From contig JAFGQP010000353.1 of the NCBI GenBank assembly GCA_016935635.1, positions 1 through 35,588 of the forward strand: a DNA stretch of 35,588 nt, written 5' to 3'. Source of the stretch: Sedimentisphaerales bacterium (lineage in GTDB: Bacteria; Planctomycetota; Phycisphaerae; Sedimentisphaerales; Anaerohalosphaeraceae). Position numbers and translations under genes: made by a program. Every line of letters begins with the position of its first letter. The first letter of the stretch is position 1. Of the stretch, positions 2,453 to 33,667 are shown piece by piece. The notes below the pieces were generated by a model that searched no databases, was not told where the DNA came from, and was given only the letters and a program-made list of their open reading frames with translations.

Positions 2453-2484
2453 ACAACAGACGCTTGAACAACAGGATAAAAATA

Positions 2485-3450: not shown

Positions 3451-3465
3451 ATGTTATTGAATCAG
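3443..3465 (-). terminator. intrinsic terminator of the glycosidase operon
   Basis: On the minus strand CTGATT pairs with AATCAG across an 11-base loop and is followed by TTTTGTTTTTG. The stem is short and AT-rich, but the T-rich tail and the position at the operon end fit termination. The hairpin also covers the stop codon of the convergent plus-strand gene. Confidence 0.4.
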
Positions 3466-13161: not shown

Positions 13162-14355
13162 CTAAAAATACATTCGAACCAGCCTGAGCACCTCCGACCG
13201 ATAAGGAAGGTCCGTACAGGTCCACAGTAAACGTAAAGCCTGTTCGCATGAGGTATCTGCAGCCAGACCGGCCTGGCGAATGAAATACGCAATCCCCGCC
13301 GCAACACCCCTGGCGATATTGGCTGGTTCGACCCCTTGCTCCAGACACAGCCGCATGGTCCCGAACAGCCGGTCATTTTCCGACAGCTTGCGGCGCGGGT
13401 CGCGTGCGGCTCTTTCCACAGTGTCATCCAGCCAGGGGTTGGTCATGCGTTTGAGCAGGTCTTCGGCAAAGGCCCGGTAACCGGCGGGTGTAAAAAGGTC
13501 CTCGTTAAGATGGGCATACTTTTTAATGAGGGCCCGGCCGGACTCATTAATGAATGCGTCCCGGGCAATCTGCATCACCTGGGCATCGTGCTCCAGTTCG
13601 GCCATTTTTGTATAGCCTTTCCGGGCGGCCAGGTAGGCCAGCACGGCATGGATGGCGTTATGGCCGTAGAGCTTGGCCTCTTCAAAGGGCAGTACATCAG
13701 ATTTCTCAATAAAAACAGAGATGCCCGGGGTGAAGCCGGAAAGGGTGCACTGGGTAACGTAAATCCGGTTGAATTCCTCGACCAAAAAGGCGCGGTCAAT
13801 ACCGGGAGCAATCGGAATCAATCCCTTTTCGGCGATTTCGTTTTTATCGGTGACAACCTGGCTCATCTTGCCTATGACGGTATTGAGGTACTGAATGGGC
13901 TGGGCAGGCCTGAAGCGAACCTTGTCTTCGAGAATCCGGGCAGCGTGATTGTTGTTCTCAGCAGCGTAAACGAGGGTAGCCCGGGCCGTGCGGTGCTGCA
14001 AACCCTGGCGAATCAGCGAGACGACACTGGGGCTTCCTTTGTCATAAAAATCGACCGAAGGCAGCGCCGTAATGATTTCAGTGGCCTGCGACAAGGCTCT
14101 GACTAATTCCTGTCGGTCCTGCTCAATGGCGGGATTGAAACACTCAATACCATCGATGTGCTCGCTCCTGATGCCGTCAAAGGACGCCACGTTCACAACA
14201 TACCGGCCATGATTGGCACGGAGAGCCTGCACGAGGGCCGGGTCAATTTCGGCAATCACGATGCGTTTGAAGCGGTTGCTTTTGAAGGCCTCGGCGGCAA
14301 ACAGGCCGCTTTGAATAGGGCCAAATCCAAATCCTGCAAATATATGGTCATTCAT
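13162..14355 (-). CDS. polyol/mannitol-type long-chain dehydrogenase
   Basis: A 397-residue protein of the polyol-specific long-chain dehydrogenase/reductase family, which contains mannitol-1-phosphate and fructuronate dehydrogenases. The N-terminus carries a Rossmann glycine pattern (FAGFGFGPIQSGLF) and an acidic residue after the second strand (IAEID). The family signature K-x4-N-x2-H is intact as K228-LYGH-N233-AI-H236, giving the catalytic Lys, Asn and His. I start at ATG 14355, as the nucleotide-binding motif follows directly; the ribosome site is weak. It lies 54 bases after the PfkB kinase gene, so kinase and dehydrogenase probably act on the same sugar or polyol phosphate using NAD(H). 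Substrate not readable. Confidence 0.82.
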   Translation of the reverse strand: MNDHIFAGFGFGPIQSGLFAAEAFKSNRFKRIVIAEIDPALVQALRANHGRYVVNVASFDGIRSEHIDGIECFNPAIEQDRQELVRALSQATEIITALPSVDFYDKGSPSVVSLIRQGLQHRTARATLVYAAENNNHAARILEDKVRFRPAQPIQYLNTVIGKMSQVVTDKNEIAEKGLIPIAPGIDRAFLVEEFNRIYVTQCTLSGFTPGISVFIEKSDVLPFEEAKLYGHNAIHAVLAYLAARKGYTKMAELEHDAQVMQIARDAFINESGRALIKKYAHLNEDLFTPAGYRAFAEDLLKRMTNPWLDDTVERAARDPRRKLSENDRLFGTMRLCLEQGVEPANIARGVAAGIAYFIRQAGLAADTSCEQALRLLWTCTDLPYRSEVLRLVRMYF

Positions 14356-14409
14356 CCTGCTGCCCAGCCTATTCGTCGATCCCAATTTACGCCGCCATCA
14401 TTCATGCTG

Positions 14410-15612
14410 CTATTGGCAATCGGATGGTCCATAAAACACCTGCTCGGCCGGTCGATAGGTCCAGCCGGCATCCTGAATATTCAGCGGATTCATCGGTCGT
14501 GCCGGGTCGCTGACCATTTGAACCGTAGTTTGCCAGTCCTCGATGCCGCTGATAGCATCCACATTACGAACATTCTGCCAGCCGACGGTATTGGCCACCT
14601 TCAGACTCGCGGCAGGGTCCAGGCCTTTCAAAAAGGCTGTCAAAAATCCGGCAATGGTTGCATCTCCGGCCCCTGTGGCAGAACCAAACTGATCCGCCCG
14701 GTACGACCCGGACCATAATTGCCGCTGTGCCCAGGATTTCACATCAAAATCAACACACTGCTTCATGGCATCAAGACGTTCCGGCCCCGCAGTATGGAGA
14801 TAGTAGCCTCGGATGCCATTTTTAATCGCGACCACGGCGACCCCCATATCCATCAACTGCTCAGACATCCGACAACAATCGCCGGGGGTATAAGCAAGCA
14901 CAGGGTCGGCATCGCCGGCCTGAGCCTTTTTGGTTTCAAACAACCGGCGGTCCAGCATAAAGGCGATTTCTTCCACACTGGGCAGAAAGATGTCTACCCA
15001 GGGCAACACTTTCTTGAATATCGCAGTCCAGTCAACCTGCCCTGAGGGGCTGCTGGGATCCGGCAAGGTCACATCCATGCTGGTTACTGCGCCGGCCTGT
15101 TTGGCCTGCCGGAACATGCTGGCCAGTTCTTCGCCCTGGTCGGCATAGAATTGCTTCATCAGGGTCGGATAGCCGAAATGAAACAGCGAACAGTCTTTCA
15201 AGGCATGATAATCCACATCCGCAGCGGTAAAGGTATCATTGGTGCCTGGATTGTGCAGAAAGACCCGGTCGACTCCGGGCAGCGCCAGGACCACACTGTA
15301 GGAGCTGGCCTGCTCTGCCACAGTACGGAGGGAAGGGGCCCGCTGGGGCCCGACAAGCTTTTTAATCACATCGCCGATCTCATCATCTCCAACCTTGCCG
15401 TTGAGCAGGACATCGATACCGAGTTTAGCCAGTGCAAGACCGGTGTTGGCAACCGCCCCGCCGGTGCTGAGGACGGCTTTGCCGACATTGACCAGCTTTC
15501 CCGGGGAAAGAATGGTGCTGAAACTGCCTTTGATGTTGGGATTGAAGACGGGGGTGATATCCAGGCAGATGTGGCCTGCCACCATGGCTTTATTTCGTTC
15601 TGTTTGTTTCAT
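14410..15612 (-). CDS. PfkB family sugar kinase
   Basis: A 400-residue cytoplasmic kinase of the ribokinase/PfkB family, longer than the usual 300-330. The substrate-side glycine motif is GGAVANTGLALAKLG (from about residue 51) and the ATP/anion-hole motif is ATGAGDATIAGF, with catalytic base D317; the usual leading Asp of DTxGAGD is replaced by Ala. An unusual insertion near the N-terminus (FNPNIKGSFSTILSPGKL) and a C-terminal tail (from about 370) distinguish it from ribokinase. It should phosphorylate a sugar or nucleoside with ATP. First gene of a two-gene unit with the polyol dehydrogenase. A truncated, corrupted paralogue lies at 23899-24171. Confidence 0.85.
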   Translation of the reverse strand: MKQTERNKAMVAGHICLDITPVFNPNIKGSFSTILSPGKLVNVGKAVLSTGGAVANTGLALAKLGIDVLLNGKVGDDEIGDVIKKLVGPQRAPSLRTVAEQASSYSVVLALPGVDRVFLHNPGTNDTFTAADVDYHALKDCSLFHFGYPTLMKQFYADQGEELASMFRQAKQAGAVTSMDVTLPDPSSPSGQVDWTAIFKKVLPWVDIFLPSVEEIAFMLDRRLFETKKAQAGDADPVLAYTPGDCCRMSEQLMDMGVAVVAIKNGIRGYYLHTAGPERLDAMKQCVDFDVKSWAQRQLWSGSYRADQFGSATGAGDATIAGFLTAFLKGLDPAASLKVANTVGWQNVRNVDAISGIEDWQTTVQMVSDPARPMNPLNIQDAGWTYRPAEQVFYGPSDCQ

Positions 15613-18579: not shown

Positions 18580-21500
18580 TTATTCCACGATGACAGAAAA
18601 GGCAAGGGCCGGGCTGTCTGCGTTGGGAAATTTCCCCTGAAGTCCAATCCAGTTGGAAACGTTCACATCGGCGGGCGTCCCAACGGCAGACAGTATTGCG
18701 CTAAAGGCCTTTTGTTCCATCGGTTCCAGACGCATCGACCAGCGGTCCGGCGAGCAGGTCCAGCCTGCGGGGAGTTTGGACAGTACAATCTCGCCGTCAA
18801 CCGTGTCGGTACTGAAGTTATAGGCGAAGAACTCAAACGGCGTGTCTTTGCCGGGGCTGATTTTGTACTGGGGTTCCATAATCCAGGGCGTTTTGGGGTC
18901 TTGTACCATCTTTATCGCATGGGTCATGGCAATCTGTAATACAATCGGAGAGGCCTTGCCGGCACGATAGTCGGCGCGCTGGGGCTTATCCAGAGTTAAT
19001 TGTGCTGTCTGGTCAACCGGTAACACGATGAAAACAGGCGAGGATCGCAGCTTGTCCGGCGGGGTATTGCCCAGTGGACGTCCAAGGTAGTCGTAAATCG
19101 CATTGATGCGTAACGCCGGCAGCGGCCAGGGTACACTGAACTGACCCCGTGTAGGCCAGTCGCCGGGCTTTTCCGCCCAGGCCACGATGATATCCCGCAG
19201 CTGACCATCGGGGATGGCCCGGAAGGCATAGATATAGCAGTCCGGCTGGTCGGGCAGAGAGAATCGGCCAAGGCATTTTGCACCGGCTAATAAGCGACCT
19301 ATGGCGGCCTGAGCAACATACGAAAGACGCGGGGTCAAATCGTTTCGCAGCAATCCGAACTGGACTTTACGCTGGTTGTCCGGCCCTTCTGTATAATGGC
19401 TAAGGATGAAATGAAAATGCATATCGACACCTGCGTACAGGCCGGCAGCAAAGGACTGAGCCATATACTGGGCCTTTAAGAGGTCATTTTCGGGGCTTAA
19501 GTCAAACCCGGGAGCATTTCCGATACTAATCGTGCCGCGGTCGCATTCGGTCAGCCAGATGGGTTTGCCACAGGCGGCCTTGCGTGCGGGTGCGAAGATA
19601 TCAAGATAGCTTTCGGGCCAGTCATAGGAATGGATATTGTAGGTATCGAAATAGGGCCATGCCTGGTTTGCCAGGACTCCAGCGGTATGATGGGCGGAGC
19701 TGCTGCCTGCATAGGGATTCCAGCCCACGACGAGGTCGGAATTTGCCGCTTTGAAACCGAGATAGGCCGCTTTTTGAAAGGAACACATCTCGGCCATGGT
19801 ATGCCCGCCGAAATTGGAGGCGTTGGCTTCATTCCAGGGTTCCCAGGCCTGAATCCACTTTCCAAATTGAACGCCAAACTGATTGCACGCCTGATAGACA
19901 ATTCGCAGGTCCTGTGGAAATCGATTATTTTCATTGTCATTTGCTGTGGCCCATTGTGGGGTATCGTGATAGACCTGCAGGACTTTCAAACCGCTTCGGT
20001 TCTGAATGTCGGCGGCGGTGTGATACTGGGAATTCCGGTCGAATGTATCTTTTTCCGGCTGAATCTCATTCCATCGTATCCGGTCACGGATCCAATTAAT
20101 CCCCGCCAGCGCCGCAAGATTAGACAGCTGCTCCTGAATACGAGGATCCTTTTTGGCCAGCCAGGACATCGCGGCATCGATACAAACAGGTGAATCCTGA
20201 GGAGTGGGACAAGCCAGCCGGGCAAGAACCGCGGCAGTGGTATAGTTGAGGACCTTCCGGCTGCTGTCGAGAAATTCGATTTTATACCAGCCAATACCTA
20301 ATTTGCCGAGGGAAAGGCTGGACGAAGTTGGATTCATGGCACCTGAGGTGATTCTGCGTCCGGAGTCATCCAGGACCTGCCAGCGAGTCGCGGCATCCGA
20401 CACACCTGCGGGCACAGAGATCATCACTTCTTCATTGTCCACATAGATGTTTCCGGGATGCCCGGGCAAGGGAGCGGGAATGGCTCGTTGGATGGTCGGC
20501 TGAGGACATGAGGGCCATATCTGGCTCTGTGGTTCGGGTATATTCAGCTCTTCCAGATGGACAGCAGCCCAGATATGATATGGATCCAATCCGATGACCT
20601 TTTCAAACTCCTGCTTTGACAATGAGTATTCGTTTTGTCCCTGATAACCAAGCCCTTTAAGATAATGTGCTGCAGCGATTCTTTTGTTCTGAGATTGCTT
20701 TTCGCCGAATTTGGCGAAGAATTCGTCCTGACCGTCGCGGGAAAGGAACCGGTCGGCTTCTTTGATCAGGCGGGAGAATAATTCATGGGCCTTGTCTTGC
20801 TGGCCCAGTTTGCGGAATGCCATCGCCTGATCATAGAGGAACTGTCCAGCATCGACTTCAATTGAAACAGCTCTCCGATAACAGTCCTGAGCCGCTTGAG
20901 ACTGGTTCATATGTTCATATAAATCAGCAAGCCAGACAAGCGTTTTGACGGCGGTTTCATCCTGCATGGGCCTGCCGACTTCGAGGTTGTCGGGATAGCC
21001 CAGAGCGGCCTGATAAAGCTTAAGGGCTTCGGACATTTCGTCATTCAGATATTTTTGACGGCCATAGAGCAGGCAGGCGTCCACAAAGCAGTCGTGAATC
21101 TCTCCGCCGCCTTCCCATGTATTGAAATGATGGGTAGTCAGCAGAGTGAATGCCTTTTCGTAGTTTGCGGTCTGAAGATAGAGGATGGCTTTTCGGGCAA
21201 GGGCATCGTCACGTTTGGATACAGTTGTGCTGTTTTTTTCCATCCAGGCCAGACGCGTCTGGGCCGGTACACGGGCAGCCTCATACAGCTGGTCCAATTC
21301 ATAATACAGCCGGGGATCATTCGGACTGAGAGCCAGGGCCTTTTCCAAGAAGGCGATGGCATTGGGCACATCCTGTTTGACCCGCCATAAGGCAAAACCG
21401 AGATTGCGATAGGCGGTGGGATTGTTCTGGTCCAGTGTGCAGGCCTTTTCCCAGTGCGTAATGGCGTATTCGGGTTCATTATCATACCAGAGGTTGCCGA

Positions 21501-23847
21501 GGTAATAGTGGGCGCGGCCGTCTTTGGGGTTGTGCTTGATTGCCGCTTCTAATGCATCGATGGATTCAGGGCGAAATGGAAAACCATACACAGATGATAC
21601 TTTGGCGGCGGTGCTGAAATACGAGCGGGCCTGTTCGGCGGACCCTGTAAGCAAGCTGTAATAACCAAGTGTATAATCAATCATTGGAATCTTGCTCTTA
21701 TCTTTCAATCCGGCCAGATAGAGGATGGCATCCTCGTAGAATCCGCAGTTGCCATAATCCACGGCAAGCTCCAGAGACGACTGGATGTCGCAGGGCATGA
21801 ATGGTTTGGCTTTGGCCGTTTGACTGAACTCCAGCAGATACAATTCATTATGTGCCCAGACATCCAGCGGATCTATTTGCAGGGTATCAAGGGCGTTCTG
21901 CCGGGCCAGCGTATCGTGATTAAGCTTTCGCAGCACGGTTGTCTTGAGATTGCGTATCTTTGTATTTCGGGAATTGGTCGCAAGGGCCTGCTCGAGGTGG
22001 TCTAAAGCGGCAAGGAGTTTGCCGCTGCGACAGTCCAGCTCTGCCAGTGCATAATGTGAGGCACTATACCAGGCTGCATCCCAGGCGGCCCTGCTGAAGG
22101 CATCATAAGCAGGTTGATATTGCCCCTGCCCACGAAGGGCTGCACCGAGATAATAATACGCCTCGGTCGTCTTCGGGCGGGTATAGTTGGCGGTGATGCG
22201 GCCAAGGGCGGCTTCAAGGTGCTGCTGGGCTTTGCTGAACAGGCCTCGTTTACAGTAAAGGATTCCAAGGTGAGTGTTAACGCAGGAGTCATTGGGGTCG
22301 CGCCTGAGGGCTTCCTGATAGTAGGCGTAAGGGTCCACCTTGGTGTTATAGAACTGGTCCAGACGCAGGCCTGCCAAATACAATTCTTCATTGGTTTTGA
22401 TTTTCTGAGGGGCGACAGGAGGTACAACCGGCTGGGGGCGGGGCTGGAACTTGTCCGGTGAGGGAGGCTGATATTGAGCCAGGATTTTTTTGTCCGAAGA
22501 GACCGTCAAAACAAGATCCTGTTCGCGTGTGCCTTCGGCAAGCTTTGCCTCTGCTTTAAATGGAAGGTCCGGGCGGATGACGGCCTGGGTTTGATAGAGG
22601 ACTGTCTGGCCGGTACGCAAGGTCACTTCTGCATGGTCGAGAATGGAAGTCGCATTAACCCTGATTTTCGCCGAGCCATCAGAAGCCAGTTCCAGATTCA
22701 GCGCGGCGTGGGTGTTGGCATATTTAAGCCCTTCGATATCACGGATTGGATACCAGCATTGGGTGACGGTCTTGACTTCATAGGGTTGAATCCAGCTATA
22801 ATCGGGCTGGTTGTCGGAATAGGCTCCAGCCATGAGTTCCAGATACGGGCCATCATTGTCGGTGAGCATTTTATCCCACATTTTGCCCTCGTCGCCGCAG
22901 CCGAAGGTGAAGAACTTCTTGCCCGGGCAGACATGGCGGTCGGCAACATAGGCAACGCCCGCATTTTGACCATGATTGTATCCTGCGAAGAAATCGGCCT
23001 CTTCATACCAGCAGAAAAAAGACACGGGTTTAGCCAGATTTTTCCACCAGCTTATATTGACCTGATTATATTTCCAGCCGCCATACCGGCTGTTGGAAAC
23101 CGGCCATTCCGAAAATTCGTTTTTGGCATGCTGGGTAACATACTGAGTTTGCGGAGGGAAAATAACCTGATAGGTATCATCAACATGGACGGAAGGATTG
23201 GCCCAGTACAGGAATGAATGCACAAACGGAGTGGAATTCTGGATTCTCACCGTGACTTCCACATAAGATTTATCCGGATAGAGAGTCATGCCCAGCAGAA
23301 ATCGCATCCGATGGCGAATTTCCAGTTCGCCCATCCACAGGGTCTTGCTGCCGTCCGGATTTTCAACAATGGTATAATCCATCGGCATATAGGTTCGGGC
23401 GCGGTGGTGGTGCGGGAAATTCCATTCCACCCCGCCGGATATCCAGGCACCAAGCATCCCTATAAGTGCAGGCTTAATGACATGCTGACGATAAAAAAAA
23501 TCATAATTATTGGTCTTATCGAGAGCGGAAAAGATACGGCCGCCGATTTCGGGAAGCACGCATAGTTTAAGATAGGGATTTTCCAGATAGACAGCGTTGT
23601 ATTGTTTGTTTTCCTGCTGATTGGTCAGGACATCGGACATCGGATAAGGATAAATTCTTCCCTGGGCACCCTGATACCCCCTGCCGGTATAGAAACGGGG
23701 ATTGGGATCTGGCTGGTCCACAGTATAGGTCGGTATCTCCAGTGATTCGACCCATATCTGAACACCAGGCTGAGCGTGCAGTGCAACAGAAAAAACCGTA
23801 ATAAAAAACATGGTTATATGCAAACAAGCTGTTTTCACATCTTTCAT
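18580..23847 (-). CDS. DUF5107-TPR-GH39-like glycosidase fusion, exported
   Basis: A 1755-residue protein with a Sec signal (1-25). Domain order by eye: DUF5107-type beta domain (about 30-370; GGRIFSALDKTNNYDFFYR, GGVEWNFPHHH), a small beta region and a Pro-rich linker (to about 485), a long array of tetratricopeptide repeats (about 490-1130), a beta domain, a clan-A TIM barrel resembling GH39 (about 1215-1530) and a C-terminal NEW3-like beta domain (about 1660-1755). The barrel has acid/base E1340 in WEPWNEAN and nucleophile E1434 in WLTECDRG, so it should be an active retaining glycosidase. DUF5107-TPR proteins occur alone in other glycan clusters; the added glycosidase is unusual. It comes last in the big minus-strand unit, just after a kinase remnant. 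Confidence 0.88.
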   Translation of the reverse strand: MKDVKTACLHITMFFITVFSVALHAQPGVQIWVESLEIPTYTVDQPDPNPRFYTGRGYQGAQGRIYPYPMSDVLTNQQENKQYNAVYLENPYLKLCVLPEIGGRIFSALDKTNNYDFFYRQHVIKPALIGMLGAWISGGVEWNFPHHHRARTYMPMDYTIVENPDGSKTLWMGELEIRHRMRFLLGMTLYPDKSYVEVTVRIQNSTPFVHSFLYWANPSVHVDDTYQVIFPPQTQYVTQHAKNEFSEWPVSNSRYGGWKYNQVNISWWKNLAKPVSFFCWYEEADFFAGYNHGQNAGVAYVADRHVCPGKKFFTFGCGDEGKMWDKMLTDNDGPYLELMAGAYSDNQPDYSWIQPYEVKTVTQCWYPIRDIEGLKYANTHAALNLELASDGSAKIRVNATSILDHAEVTLRTGQTVLYQTQAVIRPDLPFKAEAKLAEGTREQDLVLTVSSDKKILAQYQPPSPDKFQPRPQPVVPPVAPQKIKTNEELYLAGLRLDQFYNTKVDPYAYYQEALRRDPNDSCVNTHLGILYCKRGLFSKAQQHLEAALGRITANYTRPKTTEAYYYLGAALRGQGQYQPAYDAFSRAAWDAAWYSASHYALAELDCRSGKLLAALDHLEQALATNSRNTKIRNLKTTVLRKLNHDTLARQNALDTLQIDPLDVWAHNELYLLEFSQTAKAKPFMPCDIQSSLELAVDYGNCGFYEDAILYLAGLKDKSKIPMIDYTLGYYSLLTGSAEQARSYFSTAAKVSSVYGFPFRPESIDALEAAIKHNPKDGRAHYYLGNLWYDNEPEYAITHWEKACTLDQNNPTAYRNLGFALWRVKQDVPNAIAFLEKALALSPNDPRLYYELDQLYEAARVPAQTRLAWMEKNSTTVSKRDDALARKAILYLQTANYEKAFTLLTTHHFNTWEGGGEIHDCFVDACLLYGRQKYLNDEMSEALKLYQAALGYPDNLEVGRPMQDETAVKTLVWLADLYEHMNQSQAAQDCYRRAVSIEVDAGQFLYDQAMAFRKLGQQDKAHELFSRLIKEADRFLSRDGQDEFFAKFGEKQSQNKRIAAAHYLKGLGYQGQNEYSLSKQEFEKVIGLDPYHIWAAVHLEELNIPEPQSQIWPSCPQPTIQRAIPAPLPGHPGNIYVDNEEVMISVPAGVSDAATRWQVLDDSGRRITSGAMNPTSSSLSLGKLGIGWYKIEFLDSSRKVLNYTTAAVLARLACPTPQDSPVCIDAAMSWLAKKDPRIQEQLSNLAALAGINWIRDRIRWNEIQPEKDTFDRNSQYHTAADIQNRSGLKVLQVYHDTPQWATANDNENNRFPQDLRIVYQACNQFGVQFGKWIQAWEPWNEANASNFGGHTMAEMCSFQKAAYLGFKAANSDLVVGWNPYAGSSSAHHTAGVLANQAWPYFDTYNIHSYDWPESYLDIFAPARKAACGKPIWLTECDRGTISIGNAPGFDLSPENDLLKAQYMAQSFAAGLYAGVDMHFHFILSHYTEGPDNQRKVQFGLLRNDLTPRLSYVAQAAIGRLLAGAKCLGRFSLPDQPDCYIYAFRAIPDGQLRDIIVAWAEKPGDWPTRGQFSVPWPLPALRINAIYDYLGRPLGNTPPDKLRSSPVFIVLPVDQTAQLTLDKPQRADYRAGKASPIVLQIAMTHAIKMVQDPKTPWIMEPQYKISPGKDTPFEFFAYNFSTDTVDGEIVLSKLPAGWTCSPDRWSMRLEPMEQKAFSAILSAVGTPADVNVSNWIGLQGKFPNADSPALAFSVIVE

Positions 23848-23898: not shown

Positions 23899-24171
23899 TC
23901 ACAATTCAGCAAGCGGAATACTCACATCGCTGATTGTTTCATCTCCAACCTTGCCGTTGAGCAGGACATCGATGCCCAGCCTGGCCAGTGCAAGACCGGT
24001 TTTGGCAATCGCCCGGCCGGTGCCAGGGACAGCTTTGCCGACATTGACCAGCTTTTCCGGGAAAAGAACGGTGCTGAAACTGCCTTTGATGTCGGGATTG
24101 AAGACGGGGGTGTTATTCAGGCAGATGCAGCCTGCCGCCATGGCTATATCCTGTTGAGCCTGGTTCACCAT
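23899..24171 (-). pseudogene. truncated PfkB kinase copy
   Basis: A 90-codon frame nearly identical to the N-terminus of the kinase at 14410-15612. Over about 206 aligned bases (23940-24145 against the corresponding part of that gene) I count 21 differences and no gaps. Homology stops after the GKVGDE segment, and a stop follows 11 codons later, so about 300 C-terminal residues, including the ATP site, are gone. The substrate motif is also damaged: GTGRAIAKTG instead of GGAVANTG. It begins 37 bases after the oxidoreductase stop, so it may be what is left of a kinase gene once belonging to that operon. Confidence 0.85.
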
Positions 24172-24208: not shown

Positions 24209-25366
24209 CTACAGCCACGTGTAATCAACCGGTATCCATGTCCCGGTTTTGTGACTTCGGAGCACCGCCTCGACGATGAGGTCGGCGATGTGACCGTCCT
24301 GGAATGTGGCAAAATCCACATCTTTGGATTGGCCGGAGATATACCGATAGACATTCCGGCAGAAATTCTTGACAGCACTTGGATAGCCCTCGTTATGTCC
24401 TGCGGGGTAATGAGCGTAATCCCGAATGTCTTTATCCATTAAGACGGCGTCTTTGAGCATCAGTTCGTTGGGTTTGTTGCGGTTGCCAATCATCATCTCA
24501 TTGGGCTTTTCGTGGTCCCACCAGAGGCTTTTCTGCGTGCCGTTGAGTTCGATGACGATGTGGTTTTTTCTGCCTGCCGAGACCTGGGTGATGCAGGCCA
24601 TGCCGCGGGAGCCGTCTTCAAACTGCAGCAGGACATGGCCGTAGTCTTCGGACTCGATTTTGACGGTCTCATACTGATCGGGCCGGAGTTCTTTGCCGGC
24701 GAAGGTTTCGACGGCCACTTTGGGCTTTTTGCGGTAGTCATGCAGGGTCAGCAGGTCCGCAAACACTTTGACGATTCGCTTTCCTGTGACAAACTGAATC
24801 AGGTCAAACCAGTGCGACCCAACATCTGAAATCGCCCGGCTTGGCCCGGACATTTTGGGATCCAGTCTCCAGCTCCAGTCGGTATCATACAACAGCCAAT
24901 CCTGCATATAGCAGCCCTGCACCGCGAAGACTCTGCCCAGCTCGCCGTTTTGGACCATCCTGCGGGCCTGCTGAATCAGGGGATAGTAACGGTAATTGAA
25001 ATTCACGGCATGCACGAGGCCTTTGGATTTGGCCAGGGCCAGAAGCTCAGCAGATTCACCGCTGTTCATACCCAGCGGCTTTTCGCTGATACAGTGCTTG
25101 CCGGCGTTGAGGATATCCCGATTGACCTGCAGGTGCATGACATTCGGGGTGCAATTATGGACAACCTCAATGGCAGGGTCTCGCAGCATGTCCCGGTAAT
25201 CACCATAAGCTTTTGGAATATGGAGCTGGGCGGCCTTTTGGTCGGCCAAAGCCTGATTGGCTTCGGCCACGGCAGCAACTTCGACTGTGCCGAGCCGCCG
25301 CAGGGCCTCAATGTGCGCAGGGCCAATATAGCCCGTACCGATAATTGCGGCTTTGATGGTTTTCAT
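24209..25366 (-). CDS. Gfo/Idh/MocA family oxidoreductase
   Basis: A 385-residue cytoplasmic NAD(P)-dependent sugar oxidoreductase. The Rossmann motif is IGTGYIGPAH (9-18), the family signature is E95-K96-P97 with catalytic Lys, and D181-VGSH185 supplies the usual catalytic His region (DVGSHWFDL). The C-terminal half has the open-sheet substrate domain. ATG 25366 follows GGGAGA. It lies 17 bases after the xylose-isomerase-like gene. Relatives oxidise or reduce the hydroxyls of sugars, inositols or sugar acids, often forming 3-keto intermediates with isomerase-fold partners such as those upstream. Exact substrate unknown. Confidence 0.9.
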   Translation of the reverse strand: MKTIKAAIIGTGYIGPAHIEALRRLGTVEVAAVAEANQALADQKAAQLHIPKAYGDYRDMLRDPAIEVVHNCTPNVMHLQVNRDILNAGKHCISEKPLGMNSGESAELLALAKSKGLVHAVNFNYRYYPLIQQARRMVQNGELGRVFAVQGCYMQDWLLYDTDWSWRLDPKMSGPSRAISDVGSHWFDLIQFVTGKRIVKVFADLLTLHDYRKKPKVAVETFAGKELRPDQYETVKIESEDYGHVLLQFEDGSRGMACITQVSAGRKNHIVIELNGTQKSLWWDHEKPNEMMIGNRNKPNELMLKDAVLMDKDIRDYAHYPAGHNEGYPSAVKNFCRNVYRYISGQSKDVDFATFQDGHIADLIVEAVLRSHKTGTWIPVDYTWL

Positions 25367-25383
25367 CAGCAGGGTCTCCCGGT

Positions 25384-26418
25384 TCAGCAGCCCAACAGGT
25401 GCTTCATGATGAGCAGGTCCAGTTCTTCGTAATCCCGCTCTGCAATCAAGGCGGAGACTTTAGCATCATCGAGACTTCGGGACAGTTCCAGCAGTTTCAG
25501 GAAAATCGTTCTGCTGTTGCTCAGATGCTTGGCAGCGACAGCATCTTTCTGGGTTCGCATGGCTTTGACATCGAGACCGACCCACTGGCCCTGCTGCCCG
25601 TAATCGTGCTTGTCGAGGATGCGGACCTGGTTGAATGCCCTGCGGAGGTCCACGGAAGCGAAAGATTTGTCCTGATCGAACTTCAGACCGTTCTGATCAT
25701 TCAGGTGCACCGACCACAATTTCCTGTGGGCCAGAGCATACCCCATCTCATCAGAGGGGTCCAGGCCTGCCAGGATGGCATGGGCCGATTCGATGACACA
25801 GCCAACCCGCGAGGCATCACAGGTCAGCATCCCCAAGCCAATCGCATGGCCGATGGTCGGCAGATAGGCATGGTCCATCGGCTCATTGGGCTTGGCTTCA
25901 ATGGCGATTTTAATCTTTGGATTGTATTGCAGCATGGTGCTGATGGCCTCGGCAAGCCGGTCCACAGCGACCTTGCTGTCTTTGGCTTCCCGGATGTAGG
26001 TGCCTTCACGGGCAAGCCATAGAACAATCAGATAAGTCCCGAGTGCGTCGGCAATATCGATGGCCCGCTTGGACCTGTCGATGGCATACTGTCTGCACTG
26101 CGGGTCATTGCTGGTATAGCCGCCGTCGATAGTCCGGGGATCCTCCCAAAGTCTGGGGGCGACGAATTCTGCAACCAATCCTTCAGCTTCGAGACTTTTT
26201 TTGACGGATTTGGCTTCTTCAATGATTTGCTGGGCAGACAAGTCGTTCATTTTCGGAACCGCATCGTCATCATGAAACTGAACCCCGTCAAAGCCCATGG
26301 TTTTATATAGTTTGAGCTTTTTGCCAAATTCCACGGTTTTTCTCACCATCGGTCCGAAAGGATCTGCACCTTCGTGGATATTCCAGGGCCCAAATGTAAA
26401 CTTAAATACTCCCGCCAT
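25384..26418 (-). CDS. xylose isomerase family protein
   Basis: A 344-residue TIM-barrel protein that keeps the XylA active-site pattern: H49 in QFHDDD, W134 and REG, E174-A-K176-PNEP, LNDQ in HLNDQNG, and the late DVKAMRT block. These correspond to His54, Glu181, Lys183 and the metal ligands of Streptomyces xylose isomerase. It is shorter than standard XylA (about 388) at both ends. It should interconvert an aldose and ketose using two divalent cations; D-xylose is the default guess, but the operon (another isomerase-fold protein, Gfo/Idh and aminotransferase) allows other sugars. Start at ATG 26418 with AAGGAG seven bases upstream; 11 bases separate it from the gene before. Confidence 0.82.
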   Translation of the reverse strand: MAGVFKFTFGPWNIHEGADPFGPMVRKTVEFGKKLKLYKTMGFDGVQFHDDDAVPKMNDLSAQQIIEEAKSVKKSLEAEGLVAEFVAPRLWEDPRTIDGGYTSNDPQCRQYAIDRSKRAIDIADALGTYLIVLWLAREGTYIREAKDSKVAVDRLAEAISTMLQYNPKIKIAIEAKPNEPMDHAYLPTIGHAIGLGMLTCDASRVGCVIESAHAILAGLDPSDEMGYALAHRKLWSVHLNDQNGLKFDQDKSFASVDLRRAFNQVRILDKHDYGQQGQWVGLDVKAMRTQKDAVAAKHLSNSRTIFLKLLELSRSLDDAKVSALIAERDYEELDLLIMKHLLGC

Positions 26419-26429
26419 TGCGTGTCTCC

Positions 26430-27242
26430 TTAGCTCAGATAGTCCAGCGTTCTCGTTAATGATTTTTGATGGTCCAGCCTGGGGAAATATTCCAGGCCGA
26501 AGCAGCCTTGGTATCCCAGCTCATCAAGGGCTCTGATGATTCGGGGATAGTTAACTTCCGTTTCAAACAGTTCCGCCCTGCCGGGGACGCCGGCAGAATG
26601 AAAGTGCCCTATAATATCGATGTTCTTGTCGATAAATGCAAGAATATTTCCCTGCATAATCTGCATATGATAGATATCGTACAGCAGCTTGAGGTGAGGG
26701 CTTTTGAATTCGCGGATGAGTCTGACCGCTTCGTCGGTCTTATTGAAAAAGTACCCCGGGTGGTCCACGAGCGTATTGAGCGGTTCAATCAGCAAAGTGA
26801 CACCGGCTTTCTCGGCCATCTGGACGGCCTGTGCAAATGCAGCCCGGATGTGCTGATTCATCTGCTGGTCGGTAAGATTGTCCTGGGCCAGACCCGACAG
26901 GATAATGCCTTTGGAACAGTGGATGCTTTTGGCAAAATCGAGCATTTTCTGGATTTGCCGAACATAGCCTTCGTGATCTGCTTGCCGGGTCACATTACCG
27001 CCAATCGAACCATCCCAGGCACCAAAGGCAAAATCATTGTAGGCAATCTTCTTTTCTGCGGCCACTTGTGTCATTTTTGCAGCATTTTTGGGCTGTGAAA
27101 AATCGATTTCTTTGCCGTTAAATGTGCCTTCAGGATGCCAGAATTCAATATACCGGTAACCGATATCGGCAATTCGGGCAACTCTGTCTTCGAACGGCAA
27201 GTCGGTAAAAAAACATTCCGCACATACACTGATACGAGCCAT
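26430..27242 (-). CDS. hydroxypyruvate isomerase-like TIM-barrel protein
   Basis: A 270-residue protein of normal length for the hydroxypyruvate isomerase group of the AP-endonuclease-2-type barrels. Two catalytic-type glutamates are in place: E153 in LIEPLNTLVDHPGYF and E251 in FGLEYFP. The strand LKLLYDIYHMQIMQGN and the loop GHFHSAGVPGRAE are typical of Hyi. The first strand ISVCAECFF differs a little from the enterobacterial enzyme. It probably interconverts hydroxypyruvate and tartronate semialdehyde or isomerises or epimerises a keto sugar. GGAGA precedes ATG 27242. Twelve bases separate it from the DegT-type gene, so translation is likely coupled. Confidence 0.82.
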   Translation of the reverse strand: MARISVCAECFFTDLPFEDRVARIADIGYRYIEFWHPEGTFNGKEIDFSQPKNAAKMTQVAAEKKIAYNDFAFGAWDGSIGGNVTRQADHEGYVRQIQKMLDFAKSIHCSKGIILSGLAQDNLTDQQMNQHIRAAFAQAVQMAEKAGVTLLIEPLNTLVDHPGYFFNKTDEAVRLIREFKSPHLKLLYDIYHMQIMQGNILAFIDKNIDIIGHFHSAGVPGRAELFETEVNYPRIIRALDELGYQGCFGLEYFPRLDHQKSLTRTLDYLS

Positions 27243-27254
27243 AACAAGTCTCCG

Positions 27255-28601
27255 TTATTTTACAAATACCCTGGTTTCGGCCAGATAAACATTCAACACT
27301 TTATTGATCGCCGCTGCAATCCTGGTGCAATCTTCATTGCTCAGGTTGTAATCGATGTCAATCAGGATTGCACGTGCCAATAAGGACAGCGAATTGGGAC
27401 ACATGTCTTTGGTGTATTTGGGCAGTTCATTACGCGGAACACCGCTCCAGGGCAGCCGATCCGCCGATACGGACTTATACTGCAGGATATGGTCCCAGTA
27501 ATTATAGACATGCCAATCCCGGATTTTGGAATCATAAATGCCGCCGGCGGGAACACCTTCGGCCTGCAGGGCAGGCAACACATTGCGGGCGGTATCGGCA
27601 TCCGGCATAAACAGGGTCAAACAAATGCCTGTATCGCCCTGTTCATCCGGCAGGCGCCGGAAAGTCAGCCCCTCGAACCGTTCGATAGCGTCTTTGATTT
27701 TTTTCTTGGCCGCATGGTGTCTGGACACGATGGTTCTAGCCTTGCGAATCTGAGCCAGGGCCACGGCACCTTCCAGTTCGCTCATGCGGTAATTTTCCCC
27801 ACAAAACAGGTCTTCATTTTCCCGTTCGGGCCCGAAACGGTCAGGCCGCCAGCAGGCCGCACAGTCATGCCAGTTCAGGGCACGGGTATAAAGACGTTTG
27901 TCATCGGTGGTCAGGAATCCCCCTTCACCCGAGACAATGACCTTATAATAATCGAAACTGAAACAGCCAATGGTGCCGATGCTCCCGAGCATCTGGTTTT
28001 TAAACGAACCGCCGGCGGCCTGAGCGGTATCTTCGACCACCGGAATGCCATGCTTATTGGCAATATCCATAATCGCATCCATCTGAGCCGCGGCACCGCG
28101 CATGTGAACCGGGACAATGGCTTTAGTTCGTTTGGTAATGGCTTTTTCTATCGCTTCAGGGGCCATACACAGCGTATCATCAATATCCACAATAATCGGT
28201 ATGGCATTGGATGCCGCAACGGTGGCCGAGGTGGCAAAAAAGGTATAAGCCGGAACAATCACTTCATCGCCCATGCCAATCCCCAGTGCCCGATATGCCG
28301 TAATCAGGGTGGAGGTACAGGAGTTGGCCGCCATGCAATAGGTTGTGCCAATCAGGTTCCGCATGGCATCTTCCGCCGCGGCAACCTTGCTGGGACGAGG
28401 ATTGTAATACCGGAACAAATGCGGGCCCTTAATCCCATTATCCTGCTCTATCAGCGTTGTAATTGCTGCTTTCGTCTCGCCGGAATACTGCCACAGATCC
28501 AGCACTTCCAGCAGTTCATCTTTGCCAATTTTTGTCGGAAAGGGACCTAGTTTATCCACCGCCTTGGGTCCGCCATTGATTGCCAGTTTATTTGTTTTCA
28601 T
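27255..28601 (-). CDS. DegT/DnrJ/EryC1/StrS family PLP-dependent aminotransferase-like protein
   Basis: A 448-residue fold-type-I PLP protein. K220 in FSFDYYKVIVSGEGG is at the Schiff-base lysine position, D191 in VEDTAQA contacts the pyridine nitrogen, and the substrate loop YTFFATSATVAASNAIPIIVDID is typical. The opening MKTNKLAINGGPKAV is the usual start in this family; AAAGGA precedes the ATG. Such enzymes usually build amino sugars for surface glycans. Here the gene is first in a four-gene cytoplasmic block and sits directly behind an exported glycosidase, which hints at a catabolic role or at release of an amino group from a sugar. That reading is inference. Confidence 0.88.
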   Translation of the reverse strand: MKTNKLAINGGPKAVDKLGPFPTKIGKDELLEVLDLWQYSGETKAAITTLIEQDNGIKGPHLFRYYNPRPSKVAAAEDAMRNLIGTTYCMAANSCTSTLITAYRALGIGMGDEVIVPAYTFFATSATVAASNAIPIIVDIDDTLCMAPEAIEKAITKRTKAIVPVHMRGAAAQMDAIMDIANKHGIPVVEDTAQAAGGSFKNQMLGSIGTIGCFSFDYYKVIVSGEGGFLTTDDKRLYTRALNWHDCAACWRPDRFGPERENEDLFCGENYRMSELEGAVALAQIRKARTIVSRHHAAKKKIKDAIERFEGLTFRRLPDEQGDTGICLTLFMPDADTARNVLPALQAEGVPAGGIYDSKIRDWHVYNYWDHILQYKSVSADRLPWSGVPRNELPKYTKDMCPNSLSLLARAILIDIDYNLSNEDCTRIAAAINKVLNVYLAETRVFVK

Positions 28602-28662: not shown

Positions 28663-31600
28663 TTATTCATATTCCGCCCGAACGGTCAGCTGTTCCTGAA
28701 TCTGCGGAAGGACAATATATTCTTTTTCTTTGTTATAATCGGAGCAGGCTTTGCCATTGACTGTAACCGATTGGATTCGTTTTCCATCCGGGTGACGCAA
28801 TCGCAGAATCATGCGTTTACAGCTTTTTACAGCCCGTGCATCGATTTGGGCCTGAATGAAACCCTCGTTGACATGCGATGTAATCTGATATCCAACCGGG
28901 CCAAATCGGGTCTTGGCATTCTGGATATTGACAGACATCCCATCCTGCATCCAATGATTGGTGACAAACGGTGCCAGCCACAATTCATCGTCGTTTTGTT
29001 CCAAAACAAACATCATTCGGGTTTGAGCAAGGAACCAGCCGGTTTCATGGGTTTTGTTCCAGCCGCCGGTATTATGGAAATGTTCCCAGAAGGTAAGGTT
29101 TTCCCGGCTGATGAGGGTCGGGATGGCATTAAAGTAAGCACGGATAAACGGCTTAACATCGTCATTGTAGGCGTAGAGTTCTGTTATGCGGCAATAATAA
29201 GGCTGGACCTTATAGAATGCACCCAAGTCAAACCAGTTCTGCTGGACTTCTTCAGCCGAATATTCACCCATACCGCCTTTGAGGAACCAGTTGTCTTCAA
29301 GATAGCCGGATATCCAGTTGATTTCCCGGGTGTCTTTCTGCGTTAAAAGTCCCAATGGGACCAGATGATGCGGTCCGCTGCTGACATCCTTGCCCCAGGC
29401 ACGGTCGCCGTCTTCACCGGGATACATTTCTCCGACAGGCCCAAAGCAGCCGATAATGGCCGGGCTGTAGGGAATCCATGTGCCGTTGGAAAGCTGAATG
29501 ACAGGGGTACGAGCCTGCGACCAATGATAGGCACGAGACAATTCCTCACGGAATTCCATCGCCTTTTCAATGAAAACGTCGCCTCCGGGATAATCGATGT
29601 CTGCGTAGGATTCTGCAAGTCCTAACAAGCCAGCGTAGAATTCCCCCTGCGGTCTCACGAGGTAAGCAAAGCGGCTCCAGTCGGCAAATACACCCGGCGG
29701 CATCAGGCCGTACTCCGGAAGTTTCCGGCCGGCAGCATCCATCTGTTTTGTTTTTTCCCGCTCCCGCACGATCCACCTGCCGGCCTGTTCGAGTTTGGGG
29801 GCGACCGACTTGAGCCATTCGGAGTTGCGGTGAATCAAATAATAATCACCGAGTGTCCAGAGGTGCCAGCCCACCCCCCACAGGGTATAACCGGTAGTCA
29901 GCAGGCCGTCTTTATTGTAGCGGTTGATGAAGAAATCCAGCGAACGCCGGGCAAATTGTTCCTGGCCCATCAGGCTCATACCGTGAATCACCGCCTGGGC
30001 TTCGCTTTCGAGGGGACCGTAGCGGTCTGAGGAAATCCACGGGGATATCCGCTGACCATCCTGCTCATTTCTGGCCGCCAGCATACAGTGGACCTGAGAT
30101 GCGATAATCAGATCTTTCAAAAGTTTGCTGGGAACATCAATCGCCATGGAACCAGACAGAATATCAGTCCAGTATTGCTGGGTCCGTGCCAGAAGAGCTT
30201 GCGGGTTATTCAATTGCGGGATATCGTCATGGGTCATATCCCAGCCGGGAATATAAATCACGACTTTCTCTTTTGCATGGGCAGGCAGATTTCCCTGGAT
30301 GGTCACATTCCCCTTATCGATACTGATCTCAAGAGAATGGAGGGATGAGGTACTTGTGAAGGCAATGCACTTTTCTTTGCTGCCCGCAGTGAATCCCCCA
30401 GCGACGGTGTTCACAACGGCAGAATCCTTTTCGGTGAGTCTGAATGAAAGGTATAATTTGGCCGGAGCCTGGCCAGACGTTGTGTTTTCAATGGTGAATT
30501 CGGAGACAAACAGCGGCTGACTATTAAGCCACTTCAGGGTCGCGGTTCGTTGATTCGATGCTGGAGCCACAAAGGCACGATGTTCATAGACAACGCCGTT
30601 TTCCTTGAAGGTATGGACCGGCACCGGCAGCCAGTCGCCATATAAATGACGGGAAAAGGAAATATCTTTCGTGAAACCATAAGACGGCCAGATATGAAAC
30701 GTGCCGTTTTCTTTTTGTTTGCGGCCGCCGATCACATCGGAATACCATATTTTCCCGTGCCGTTCAACAATGTACTTGACATTGTCACAGGCCAAAGAAA
30801 GCATCACCGGTCCCTGGTCCTGAATCTGGCGATGCACTTTATCCATGGCGCGCTCGAAACTCTGATCGGGCATCTGACGCACTTTTTCAAGAACTGTCTT
30901 TCGCCCTTCTATTTTTTTTTCTTTATAGTCCTGTAAACTGAGAGGCTTATCGGCCAGAGTGACATAAAAACCATAGTCCGGGACGTACACACCGCCATTT
31001 TCGATGACATCCTCCACGGCAACGCCAAAATTGCCGGCTGGGAGCTGTACCTGGAGAATCGTACGGTCCGAACGAGGCAGGCTTTTCGTCACACAATACT
31101 TCAATTCCATAGTGAGAGGCCTGGACAGATTCCAACTCTGCTCCAGGGCGGTTTTATCAGAAGCAGACGATAAAATCTGACCATTATAAAGAGTAATCTT
31201 GCCGGTTCCATTGCCGGATTCCGACTGAACGGAAAGCTTAACTGTATTCCATTGGGATCGAGTATAAGCCTTGATGCTGCGAAGCACAATCGGCCGGACA
31301 GAGCGAGGAAATACCCAGCGGATTTTTACAGGATCCGCTAAAGCGCCATATTTGGAAGCCTTATCCGAGGCAGTTTTTATGTCTTTGAAATTGACAGGGA
31401 TAAACCATCTGTTTTCTGAAACTTCAATCTGGCCTGTCAGCTTAATCCAATCGCCCTGCCAGGCCGATTCCCCAATCCACCATTCTACGCGAGATTTTGA
31501 CACAGTGGGAATATGGGAATTTTGGGCAAACTCAATAGAAATGCCGCGAAGTTTTCGGTTTTCGTACCACTGCAATCCTATGCTTGTCTGCCCATCCGAG

Positions 31601-32304
31601 AAAGCAGGGACTTTGAAGCTTCCATCCGAAACCGGCATGATCTCGGTCCCATGAAAGATTTCTTCGACCTTGAGTTCTCCCACCCTGTTGGGGTGATAGC
31701 TGACTTTGGACGGATCCCAGGAATACACTTTAGCAAATGGTGCAATATCAAAGGCATTGCCACTGGACCATATCTCTGAAACCGACCCCGAAGCAGGAAT
31801 AAGCCTTATATCGGCCCAATTGGCTACATCGCTGTTGATTCCATCGGAGGCATCAGTCACAACCAATTCAAGCTGCCGGGCATCCCTGACTGAAACTTTT
31901 ACGGATTTAGGCGAATCTTTTTCTGTCATGATGCCGCTGTCAAAACCTATTTTACCGTCGACAACCACCTGAAATACCACCGTTCCATCAGCATTTCCAT
32001 CCTGGATGCCTGTTTTTGCCTCAAACGATTCAAATCCGCCTTCCAAATCCAGGACAATTCTGCTGGGGGCATGGGTACCCAACCCGTGAACAAAAGTTTT
32101 TCCAGACATGGTAATCGGCCGGGGCTTTCTGCCCCCCGGCGGCACGACAGCAGTGTTGATACCCAACTGCCCCCATCCCTGACTGACCGACACGATAGGC
32201 AATTCCTGATTTGAGACGCTTTCCGCCGGACACTGATTGACGATAATAAAGCCAAGCACGGACATCCCGATGATACAGATCAAGTTATTGAGTCCTACTT
32301 TCAC
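28663..32304 (-). CDS. NPCBM-containing six-hairpin glycoside hydrolase, exported
   Basis: A 1213-residue protein with a GTG start at 32304, seven bases after a strong AAGGAAG. The signal peptide spans about 1-28. Residues about 35-185 are an NPCBM carbohydrate-binding module (KTFVHGLGTHAPSRIVLDL, DSGIMTEKDSPKSVKVSVRDARQLELVVTD in pieces). Residues about 190-690 are beta-sandwich domains and 720-1110 an (alpha/alpha)6 barrel with landmarks DRYGPLESEAQAVIHGM, LWGVGWHLWTLGDYY, YGLMPPGVFADW and NWFDLGAFYKVQPYY; a beta domain closes it. This fits the six-hairpin glycosidase superfamily (GH78, GH63, GH15 relatives), but I cannot place it in a numbered family or name the catalytic acids. First gene behind the promoter/operator at 32353-32402. 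Confidence 0.8.
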   Translation of the reverse strand: MKVGLNNLICIIGMSVLGFIIVNQCPAESVSNQELPIVSVSQGWGQLGINTAVVPPGGRKPRPITMSGKTFVHGLGTHAPSRIVLDLEGGFESFEAKTGIQDGNADGTVVFQVVVDGKIGFDSGIMTEKDSPKSVKVSVRDARQLELVVTDASDGINSDVANWADIRLIPASGSVSEIWSSGNAFDIAPFAKVYSWDPSKVSYHPNRVGELKVEEIFHGTEIMPVSDGSFKVPAFSDGQTSIGLQWYENRKLRGISIEFAQNSHIPTVSKSRVEWWIGESAWQGDWIKLTGQIEVSENRWFIPVNFKDIKTASDKASKYGALADPVKIRWVFPRSVRPIVLRSIKAYTRSQWNTVKLSVQSESGNGTGKITLYNGQILSSASDKTALEQSWNLSRPLTMELKYCVTKSLPRSDRTILQVQLPAGNFGVAVEDVIENGGVYVPDYGFYVTLADKPLSLQDYKEKKIEGRKTVLEKVRQMPDQSFERAMDKVHRQIQDQGPVMLSLACDNVKYIVERHGKIWYSDVIGGRKQKENGTFHIWPSYGFTKDISFSRHLYGDWLPVPVHTFKENGVVYEHRAFVAPASNQRTATLKWLNSQPLFVSEFTIENTTSGQAPAKLYLSFRLTEKDSAVVNTVAGGFTAGSKEKCIAFTSTSSLHSLEISIDKGNVTIQGNLPAHAKEKVVIYIPGWDMTHDDIPQLNNPQALLARTQQYWTDILSGSMAIDVPSKLLKDLIIASQVHCMLAARNEQDGQRISPWISSDRYGPLESEAQAVIHGMSLMGQEQFARRSLDFFINRYNKDGLLTTGYTLWGVGWHLWTLGDYYLIHRNSEWLKSVAPKLEQAGRWIVREREKTKQMDAAGRKLPEYGLMPPGVFADWSRFAYLVRPQGEFYAGLLGLAESYADIDYPGGDVFIEKAMEFREELSRAYHWSQARTPVIQLSNGTWIPYSPAIIGCFGPVGEMYPGEDGDRAWGKDVSSGPHHLVPLGLLTQKDTREINWISGYLEDNWFLKGGMGEYSAEEVQQNWFDLGAFYKVQPYYCRITELYAYNDDVKPFIRAYFNAIPTLISRENLTFWEHFHNTGGWNKTHETGWFLAQTRMMFVLEQNDDELWLAPFVTNHWMQDGMSVNIQNAKTRFGPVGYQITSHVNEGFIQAQIDARAVKSCKRMILRLRHPDGKRIQSVTVNGKACSDYNKEKEYIVLPQIQEQLTVRAEYE

Positions 32305-32443: not shown

Positions 32444-33667
32444 TCATCGTTGCGCATGGGATGCATTCACCTGCTGTGCAAAGCCTGATATTTCCCTGGC
32501 CATGTCGCTGATTTTCATTTCGTTTTCGCAATTTTTCAGCCCGTTCTTGAACCTGTCATTGAGGGGATCTTTCCATTTTGACGGGATTGCGGCCTGGCCA
32601 TGCATGGCTCCGATAATGCCTCCAACTGTTCCGGCATTGCAGTCGGCATCGTAGCCGCACATGGTTGCAAGGCAGATGCTTTTTGTGAAATCCCCTTCAC
32701 CATAGAGCAAGGCCAGTACGCAGGCCGCCCCGTTTGGCATCACATGCACCCATCGCATATTTTCCCATTGATAAAGGCCTTTGACCGTATTGAATCGATC
32801 TTCAACAAAACCGCCTCTGCGGACGCCATCGTCATTCCAGCCGTAGCGATCGTCGAGCAATCGCCAGGTCTTTTGCCAGTCATACCCCGCCTCATGCCAG
32901 GATATGACATCCCGAACTGCAATTGCATATTCGCAATGTTCAGGAATAACCTTTAATGCCTCAAGAACAAGGTTTTTCACATCTTTTTGCGTCATCGCCA
33001 AACTCACCATTGCGGCGACGTATTGAGCTCCATAAATCCCGTTTCGAACATGGCTTATTGAGGCATCCCGAAGTGCGAACTCCGCAGCCTTTTGCGGCAA
33101 TCCCGGAGCAATCATGCCCCAGATATCCGCACGCATCTGGGCACCAATCCATTGTTCATACGGATTATCCACAACCGCCGATTCCGGAGGCCAGATGTCA
33201 CGTTTAAAATTGTGTAAGGCAACCCCTTCGGCCGTACACGCGAACTTCACATGCCTGACCCATTTATCAGCCAATTGACGCGGCGTAAAATAGATTCCAT
33301 ATTCACGTAACGTCAGCATGGACACAGTCATCAGGTCGGTATCATCATTGGCCAGAAAATGGTCGAATTTACCCTGAAGGGTTCCGGGATAAGGTGTTTT
33401 AAAATCGGCCGGGAAATAGTATACAACCGGATAAAAAACCACCCTTTTGGCTTCTTCTTCAATCTGCTGTTTGCTCCAGCCTTCCACAGGCTGCCCCAGA
33501 TTAAGACCGATGCACTTGCCCAGCAGACTACCGTGAATTCTGTCCATAAGGACATTGTCATCCTGGCTGCTTTTTTGTTTATCTTCAAAGGTTTGAGCCT
33601 TCAGGCTATCTGTGTTTATAAAGAAAAACGTCAGACCCAGGAAAACGATAACTCGGGGAATCTTCAT
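32444..33667 (-). CDS. exported ADP-ribosylglycohydrolase-fold protein
   Basis: A 407-residue protein with a clear Sec signal (1-24, KAQ cleavage) and GGAGAA before the ATG. Residues about 40-365 match the ADP-ribosyl-glycohydrolase family: HGSLLGKCIGLNLGQP near the start, ANDDTDLMTVSM with D108, D109 and D111 as first magnesium ligands, and GYDADCNAGTVGGIIGAMHG supplying the second ligand cluster. Classical members act on ADP-ribosylated proteins in the cytoplasm. This one is exported and lies next to glycosidases, so it more likely cleaves a sugar N- or O-glycosidic bond in a glycan. It ends 40 bases from the promoter of the next operon and is probably its own unit. Confidence 0.87.
   Translation of the reverse strand: MKIPRVIVFLGLTFFFINTDSLKAQTFEDKQKSSQDDNVLMDRIHGSLLGKCIGLNLGQPVEGWSKQQIEEEAKRVVFYPVVYYFPADFKTPYPGTLQGKFDHFLANDDTDLMTVSMLTLREYGIYFTPRQLADKWVRHVKFACTAEGVALHNFKRDIWPPESAVVDNPYEQWIGAQMRADIWGMIAPGLPQKAAEFALRDASISHVRNGIYGAQYVAAMVSLAMTQKDVKNLVLEALKVIPEHCEYAIAVRDVISWHEAGYDWQKTWRLLDDRYGWNDDGVRRGGFVEDRFNTVKGLYQWENMRWVHVMPNGAACVLALLYGEGDFTKSICLATMCGYDADCNAGTVGGIIGAMHGQAAIPSKWKDPLNDRFKNGLKNCENEMKISDMAREISGFAQQVNASHAQR

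Follow-up and report, generated by a model that had tools for sequence, protein, structure and literature searches.

Why would the gene of an aminotransferase of the DegT/DnrJ/EryC1/StrS family, whose members are classically biosynthetic and build cell-surface sugars, lie in close succession with genes for two isomerase-like TIM barrels and a sugar oxidoreductase? This arrangement is found in a 35,588-nucleotide stretch of DNA (the window) from a Sedimentisphaerales bacterium, contig JAFGQP010000353.1 of assembly GCA_016935635.1 (contig C2 of 381; assembly 87.6% complete), in which a DegT, a Hyi-like, a XylA-like and a Gfo/Idh/MocA gene follow one another (Table 1). The four genes probably encode the intracellular core of a pathway which catabolises a nitrogen-bearing sugar, either an amino sugar or an amino-cyclitol.

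Organization and conservation of the module

All four open reading frames (ORFs) are on the minus strand. Their computed spacings of 12, 11 and 17 bases, as well as their identities and coordinates, agree with a first-pass annotation made from the sequence alone. Purine-rich stretches resembling ribosome binding sites, as judged by eye, precede the module genes. The same annotation placed them, together with an upstream NPCBM gene, behind one promoter, which could not be confirmed: promoter-like sites were at the level of shuffled sequence (15 versus 11.7 +/- 3.4).

All four genes recur in six other genomes of Planctomycetota and Verrucomicrobiota (loci L046, L070, L177, L043, L156 and L098), so that the module is more than a chance assembly, and the gene-neighbourhood check proposed at first pass came out in its favor. 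The four genes are a conserved, movable set: the order is DegT-Hyi-Gfo-XylA in L156 and XylA-Gfo-DegT-Hyi in the verrucomicrobial L098, where Gfo is just 29% identical, while in L043 the set is broken up by other genes. In the sister genome (UBA7708, L046/L063) the order is PIG-L, DegT, Hyi, XylA, Gfo, PfkB, MtlD-like, and a GH92 gene lies past the end of this run. Four genes is thus the size of the set in the window, and the sister-genome set is larger by the PIG-L deacetylase, the PfkB kinase and the mannitol-dehydrogenase-like enzyme. The PIG-L (1443-2170) and DegT (2475-3829) genes of L046 are each split between frames, through assembly error or decay.

The strict DegT clade comprised 15 loci, of which 13 were rows of the tree and two, L070 and L046, had partial or split copies. 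A Hyi-like gene adjoined DegT in 13 of the 15, making this the steadiest pair (the exceptions were L155 and L178, the contig of the latter stopping 500 bases beyond DegT), and an XRE-cupin regulator was found near DegT in nine, in L045 above an intervening NPCBM gene. Where the contig was long enough (12 loci), XylA was linked in 7; L045, L180, L181 and L154 carry DegT-Hyi without a linked XylA. Within the order, a XylA-like gene was present in 9/12 genomes with a clade DegT versus 40/149 without (p = 0.0013, uncorrected for ancestry). Viewed from the XylA-like gene, 13 of 79 loci had a DegT nearby when about 1.1 were expected from the density in relatives of the window. These XylA-linked DegTs come from several lineages, one of them beside 2-deoxy-scyllo-inosose aminotransferase (100/99), and on the tree at least 11 changes of the label are required. 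The XylA-like gene has therefore been joined to DegT repeatedly, but not exclusively.

Table 1. Positions of the module genes and associated features in the window and, for MttB-superfamily methyltransferases, in related loci.
Feature	Position	Strand	Remarks
DegT/DnrJ/EryC1/StrS aminotransferase, KdnA-like clade	27255..28601	-	448 residues; PF01041, 257 bits; cofactor lysine K220
Hyi/2-oxo-tetronate-isomerase-like TIM barrel	26430..27242	-	270 residues; PF01261, 117 bits
XylA-like TIM barrel, distinct subfamily	25384..26418	-	344 residues; PF01261, 69 bits
Gfo/Idh/MocA oxidoreductase	24209..25366	-	385 residues; PF01408
NPCBM protein, putative glycosidase	28663..32304	-	Signal-like N-terminus; PF08305, 129 bits
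ADP-ribosylglycohydrolase-family (DraG-like) protein	32444..33667	-	Signal-like N-terminus; upstream, co-directional; membership uncertain
PfkB N-terminus remnant	23899..24170	-	228 bases 88% identical to start of intact PfkB gene (15612-14410)
PfkB-family kinase	14410..15612	-	Orthologue directly after Gfo in sister genome L046/L063
Mannitol-1-phosphate-dehydrogenase-like (MtlD-like) protein	13162..14385	-	After PfkB in sister genome; also in alternative XylA architecture
MttB, L070	5485-6909
MttB, L180	5738-7156
MttB, L156	10597-11142
MttB, L047	7177-8628
MttB, L072	8544-9971
MttB, L062	about 10015-11412

The DegT aminotransferase and its setting

The lysine of DegT which binds pyridoxal phosphate was invariant in 81/81 aligned rows. 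The best solved relative was KdnA (8-amino-3,8-dideoxy-D-manno-octulosonate transaminase, PDB 5k8b), matched with 256 bits along almost the entire protein, ahead of aminotransferases for sugars and for 2-deoxy-scyllo-inosose (about 170 bits). In the tree the clade falls with KdnA (100/99, 30-row set), apart from the ordinary DegTs of the genome; KdnA is a long, early branch there and was entered by its matched stretch only. KdnA is a biosynthetic enzyme which makes a lipopolysaccharide sugar and acts on a free sugar acid. The DegT of the window differs from it in having about 70 N-terminal residues outside the match, and its clade is found among isomerases and transporters. No KdnB alcohol dehydrogenase was present among the recognised neighbours, no search aimed at KdnB having been made.

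The neighbours of the DegT clade (107 proteins) were compared with those of ordinary DegTs from the same genome and its relatives (88 proteins), ORFs being called mechanically so that either pool may hold spurious members. Around the clade we found TIM barrels (25), XRE-cupin regulators (7), Gfo proteins (6), SSF sodium symporters (4) and MttB (3), and no nucleoside diphosphate (NDP)-sugar or glycosyltransferase family matched two or more of the 107. In contrast, 21 GDP-mannose dehydratase/epimerase and 13 UDP-glucose dehydrogenase proteins dominated the surroundings of the ordinary DegTs. This difference makes surface-glycan synthesis unlikely, and it was rejected on this control. In relatives, symporters, a sugar ATP-binding cassette (ABC) transporter and glycosidases lie near the module. 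A catabolic rather than biosynthetic setting of this DegT is supported, and the first-pass view that the enzyme sits unexpectedly in a catabolic set is upheld by the neighbour pools and by recurrence.

The TIM barrels and the oxidoreductase

The Hyi-like protein gave full-length matches under the equivalog cut-offs to TIGR03234 (160/353 bits) and NF043033 (151/325 bits). It thus resembles hydroxypyruvate/2-oxo-tetronate isomerases, but has a DegT as its genomic partner.

The XylA-like protein was nearest to actinobacterial xylose isomerase (TIGR02631; PDB 5y4j), scoring 200 bits versus a cut-off of 447. It shares the fold family and retains the catalytic His/Asp (His49, Asp52), Lys176 and all metal ligands but one (residues Glu174, Glu210, His213, Asp248, Asp250 and Asp283 being kept). 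Among 87 homologues of at least 60% identity, the equivalent of the metal ligand Asp245 was His238 in 87/87, leaving the full ligand set incomplete, and the positions aligned with pocket residues Thr90, Asn92 and Phe94 of xylose isomerase were Ala, Arg and Trp, again in 87/87; this pocket stretch was anchored by flanking conserved blocks in a sequence alignment, not checked against structure. The xylose isomerase numbering and residue roles are the standard ones. Judged by these residues, the protein is a subfamily separate from xylose isomerase. The genome has one other, distant xylose isomerase match (26% identity), in a 441-residue frame, a length usual for xylose isomerases. Because of this second match and the altered active site we rejected a plain xylose pathway.

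The best NCBIfam match of Gfo was levoglucosan dehydrogenase, over its full length, at 181/650 bits and so below the LgdA cut-off; its top solved relatives include 6a3f and the L-glucose and scyllo-inositol dehydrogenases. Directly after Gfo lies a remnant of the PfkB gene, whereas PfkB itself and the MtlD-like gene are about 8.6 kb downstream. With PfkB directly after Gfo in the sister genome, this indicates that the end of the module has been rearranged in the window, and the remnant suggests that a duplication or insertion took place long ago between Gfo and PfkB. PfkB is weakly IolC-like (57/300 bits). Between the module and the displaced genes, positions 18580-23847 encode a protein of 1755 residues in which DUF5107 is combined with many TPR repeats.

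Nitrogen-linked genes in relatives

In L046 and L043 a PIG-L deacetylase accompanies the module, in L177 it does so at the edge of the locus, and in L207 it lies beside XylA. L045 has a NodB-type deacetylase together with a symporter. MttB-superfamily methyltransferases lie beside DegT or XylA in L070, L180, L156, L047 and L072, and a sixth, more distant, in L062 (Table 1); their frames read through without a stop, that is, with no pyrrolysine readthrough. MttB occurred in 5/21 loci when about 0.13 were expected by density (P about 2e-7), a rough value because 16 genomes supplied the density and searches of several kinds contributed the loci. The likeness to MttB-superfamily amine demethylation systems lies in this placement beside DegT. 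Amines are the expected targets of these methyltransferases, as of the deacetylases, and we know of no amino-sugar substrate for the superfamily. URO-D-family proteins, a family which includes methyl-transfer partners, were found in L180, L072 and L124. With these genes around the modules of relatives, an N-substituted sugar becomes likelier; the amino-sugar suggestion of the first-pass annotation is strengthened, the substrate being a prediction.

The DegTs adjoining MttB belong to several lineages, in planctomycetes and Lentisphaerota. About 22 kb from the module, the window has an MtaA/CmuA-type URO-D-family methyltransferase homologue (1397-2452, 164 bits). Neutral-ceramidase-like proteins lie near DegT, in some cases without XylA, in L088 (8630-9955, PF04734 checked) and L080 (8635-9975), with weaker cases in L048, L051, L053, L054, L057, L058 and L060; this is possibly a second pairing of an N-deacylase with DegT.

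XylA-like genes also occur in a common, conserved alternative architecture, in which a FAD oxidoreductase carrying an F5/8 domain comes first and is followed by XylA, PIG-L, a weakly NagB-like protein, PfkB, DUF4432 and an MtlD-like enzyme (L079, L083, L090, L091, L102, L103, L107, L108, L118, L121 and L138, some incomplete). The AlphaFold model of the NagB-like protein (pLDDT, the predicted local distance difference test, 38) was too poor for a fold search.

The upstream NPCBM protein

The gene 61 bases ahead of DegT, itself 139 bases from the DraG-like gene, had been described as encoding a secreted glycosidase which feeds the module. The NPCBM domain was confirmed and the protein is apparently exported, but Pfam-type domain searches matched no catalytic family, so the glycosidase label is not established; the model of its C-terminal part (pLDDT 41) was too poor for a fold search. 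In L045 the gene directly ahead of DegT encodes a homologue (24% identity), and in L178 a partial homologue follows DegT. With only these two other loci, feeding by this protein was not confirmed.

Discussion

In the pathway we propose, exported enzymes would release a nitrogen-bearing sugar, N-acylated or N-methylated in some relatives, which a symporter or ABC transporter, known from relatives only, would import. Where needed, a PIG-L/NodB deacetylase or the corrinoid methyltransferase MttB may free the amine. DegT would then donate the amino group of the sugar to a 2-oxo acid, giving a carbonyl sugar. By isomerisation or epimerisation the two TIM-barrel enzymes would move the carbonyl, and Gfo, using NAD(P), would oxidise or reduce one of the ring carbons. 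PfkB would phosphorylate the product, and the MtlD-like enzyme would carry out the last redox step on the way to central metabolism. Direction, order and substrate are what we infer; the gene set, residues, co-conservation and neighbours are as observed above. We offer only tentatively, as a rather doubtful proposal, that this may be an undescribed route by which planctomycetes and their relatives break down N-substituted sugars, in which MttB demethylation or PIG-L deacetylation precedes deamination by DegT and isomerisation of the product by a XylA subfamily with an altered metal site. A limited literature search found no catabolic cluster of DegT, XylA-type and Gfo genes and no link of MttB to amino sugars, which is weak evidence of novelty.

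Several observations weigh against nitrogen-sugar catabolism by the module. The direction of transamination is not readable from sequence, and the NagB-like protein resembles NagB only marginally (E 0.0024 and 8e-4). Neither PIG-L nor MttB turned up in the assembly to which the window belongs (87.6% complete), so that the amine-exposing step known from relatives, including that of the MttB systems, was not found here. In the window, no recognised transporter flanks the module. Finally, 66 of the 79 XylA-like loci are without DegT and some members of the DegT clade have Hyi alone, so that the four-gene unit recurs but is not obligate. Overall, what stands of the first interpretation is a real, co-conserved module in a catabolic setting with an amino sugar likelier, while the keto-sugar intermediate and the feeding by the NPCBM protein stay at the level of suggestion.

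A route of the levoglucosan or C-glycoside type would have Gfo oxidise C3 to a 3-keto-glycoside, which the TIM barrels would beta-eliminate and hydrate, with DegT as a side enzyme that might serve, for example, 3-amino-3-deoxy sugars. The levoglucosan dehydrogenase match of Gfo and its relative 6a3f fit this, and the LgdA-LgdB1-LgdB2-LgdC pathway likewise combines enzymes of the Gfo family with two proteins that carry a sugar phosphate isomerase annotation (PMC7676230). The module, however, has an aminotransferase instead of a second Gfo. Its XylA-like member keeps an isomerase-type active site, its Hyi-like member is nearest to isomerases, and Gfo is the less constant component while DegT-Hyi is the constant pair; we regard such a route as unlikely. 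Amino-cyclitol catabolism (inosamine, rhizopine-like) is a special case of nitrogen-bearing sugar catabolism, in which DegT would convert inosamine to inosose, Gfo would be an inositol dehydrogenase and the Hyi-like protein an IolO-like epimerase. It is consistent with the XylA-linked DegT lineage grouping with 2-deoxy-scyllo-inosose aminotransferase, with the scyllo-inositol dehydrogenase resemblance of Gfo and the IolC-like PfkB, and with a dehydrogenase in L181 (12509-13849), weakly like scyllo-inosose 3-dehydrogenase IolM (73/450 bits), between PfkB and MtlD-like genes beside DegT-Hyi. We nevertheless give it little weight, as the DegT of the window belongs to the KdnA clade rather than the inosose one, and every inositol-enzyme NCBIfam score is far under its cut-off.

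A biosynthetic module, supplying an amino sugar to a surface glycan or a small molecule, would suit the classical role of DegTs and of KdnA, and PIG-L deacetylases also serve biosynthesis, but the scarcity of NDP-sugar and glycosyltransferase families around the clade and the closeness of symporters, a sugar ABC transporter and glycosidases make it very improbable. That unrelated sugar genes form an operon by chance has hardly any credibility: the genes are separable, as the loci with DegT-Hyi but no linked XylA demonstrate, yet they recur in two phyla, the XylA-DegT joining exceeds expectation, and the genes co-occur at genome level.

If the clade deaminates sugars, automated annotation is misleading for many genomes of planctomycetes, lentisphaerotes and Verrucomicrobiota. 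The module points to a pool of nitrogen-bearing sugars whose degrading enzymes await description, and a defined XylA subfamily and DegT clade become available for direct assay.

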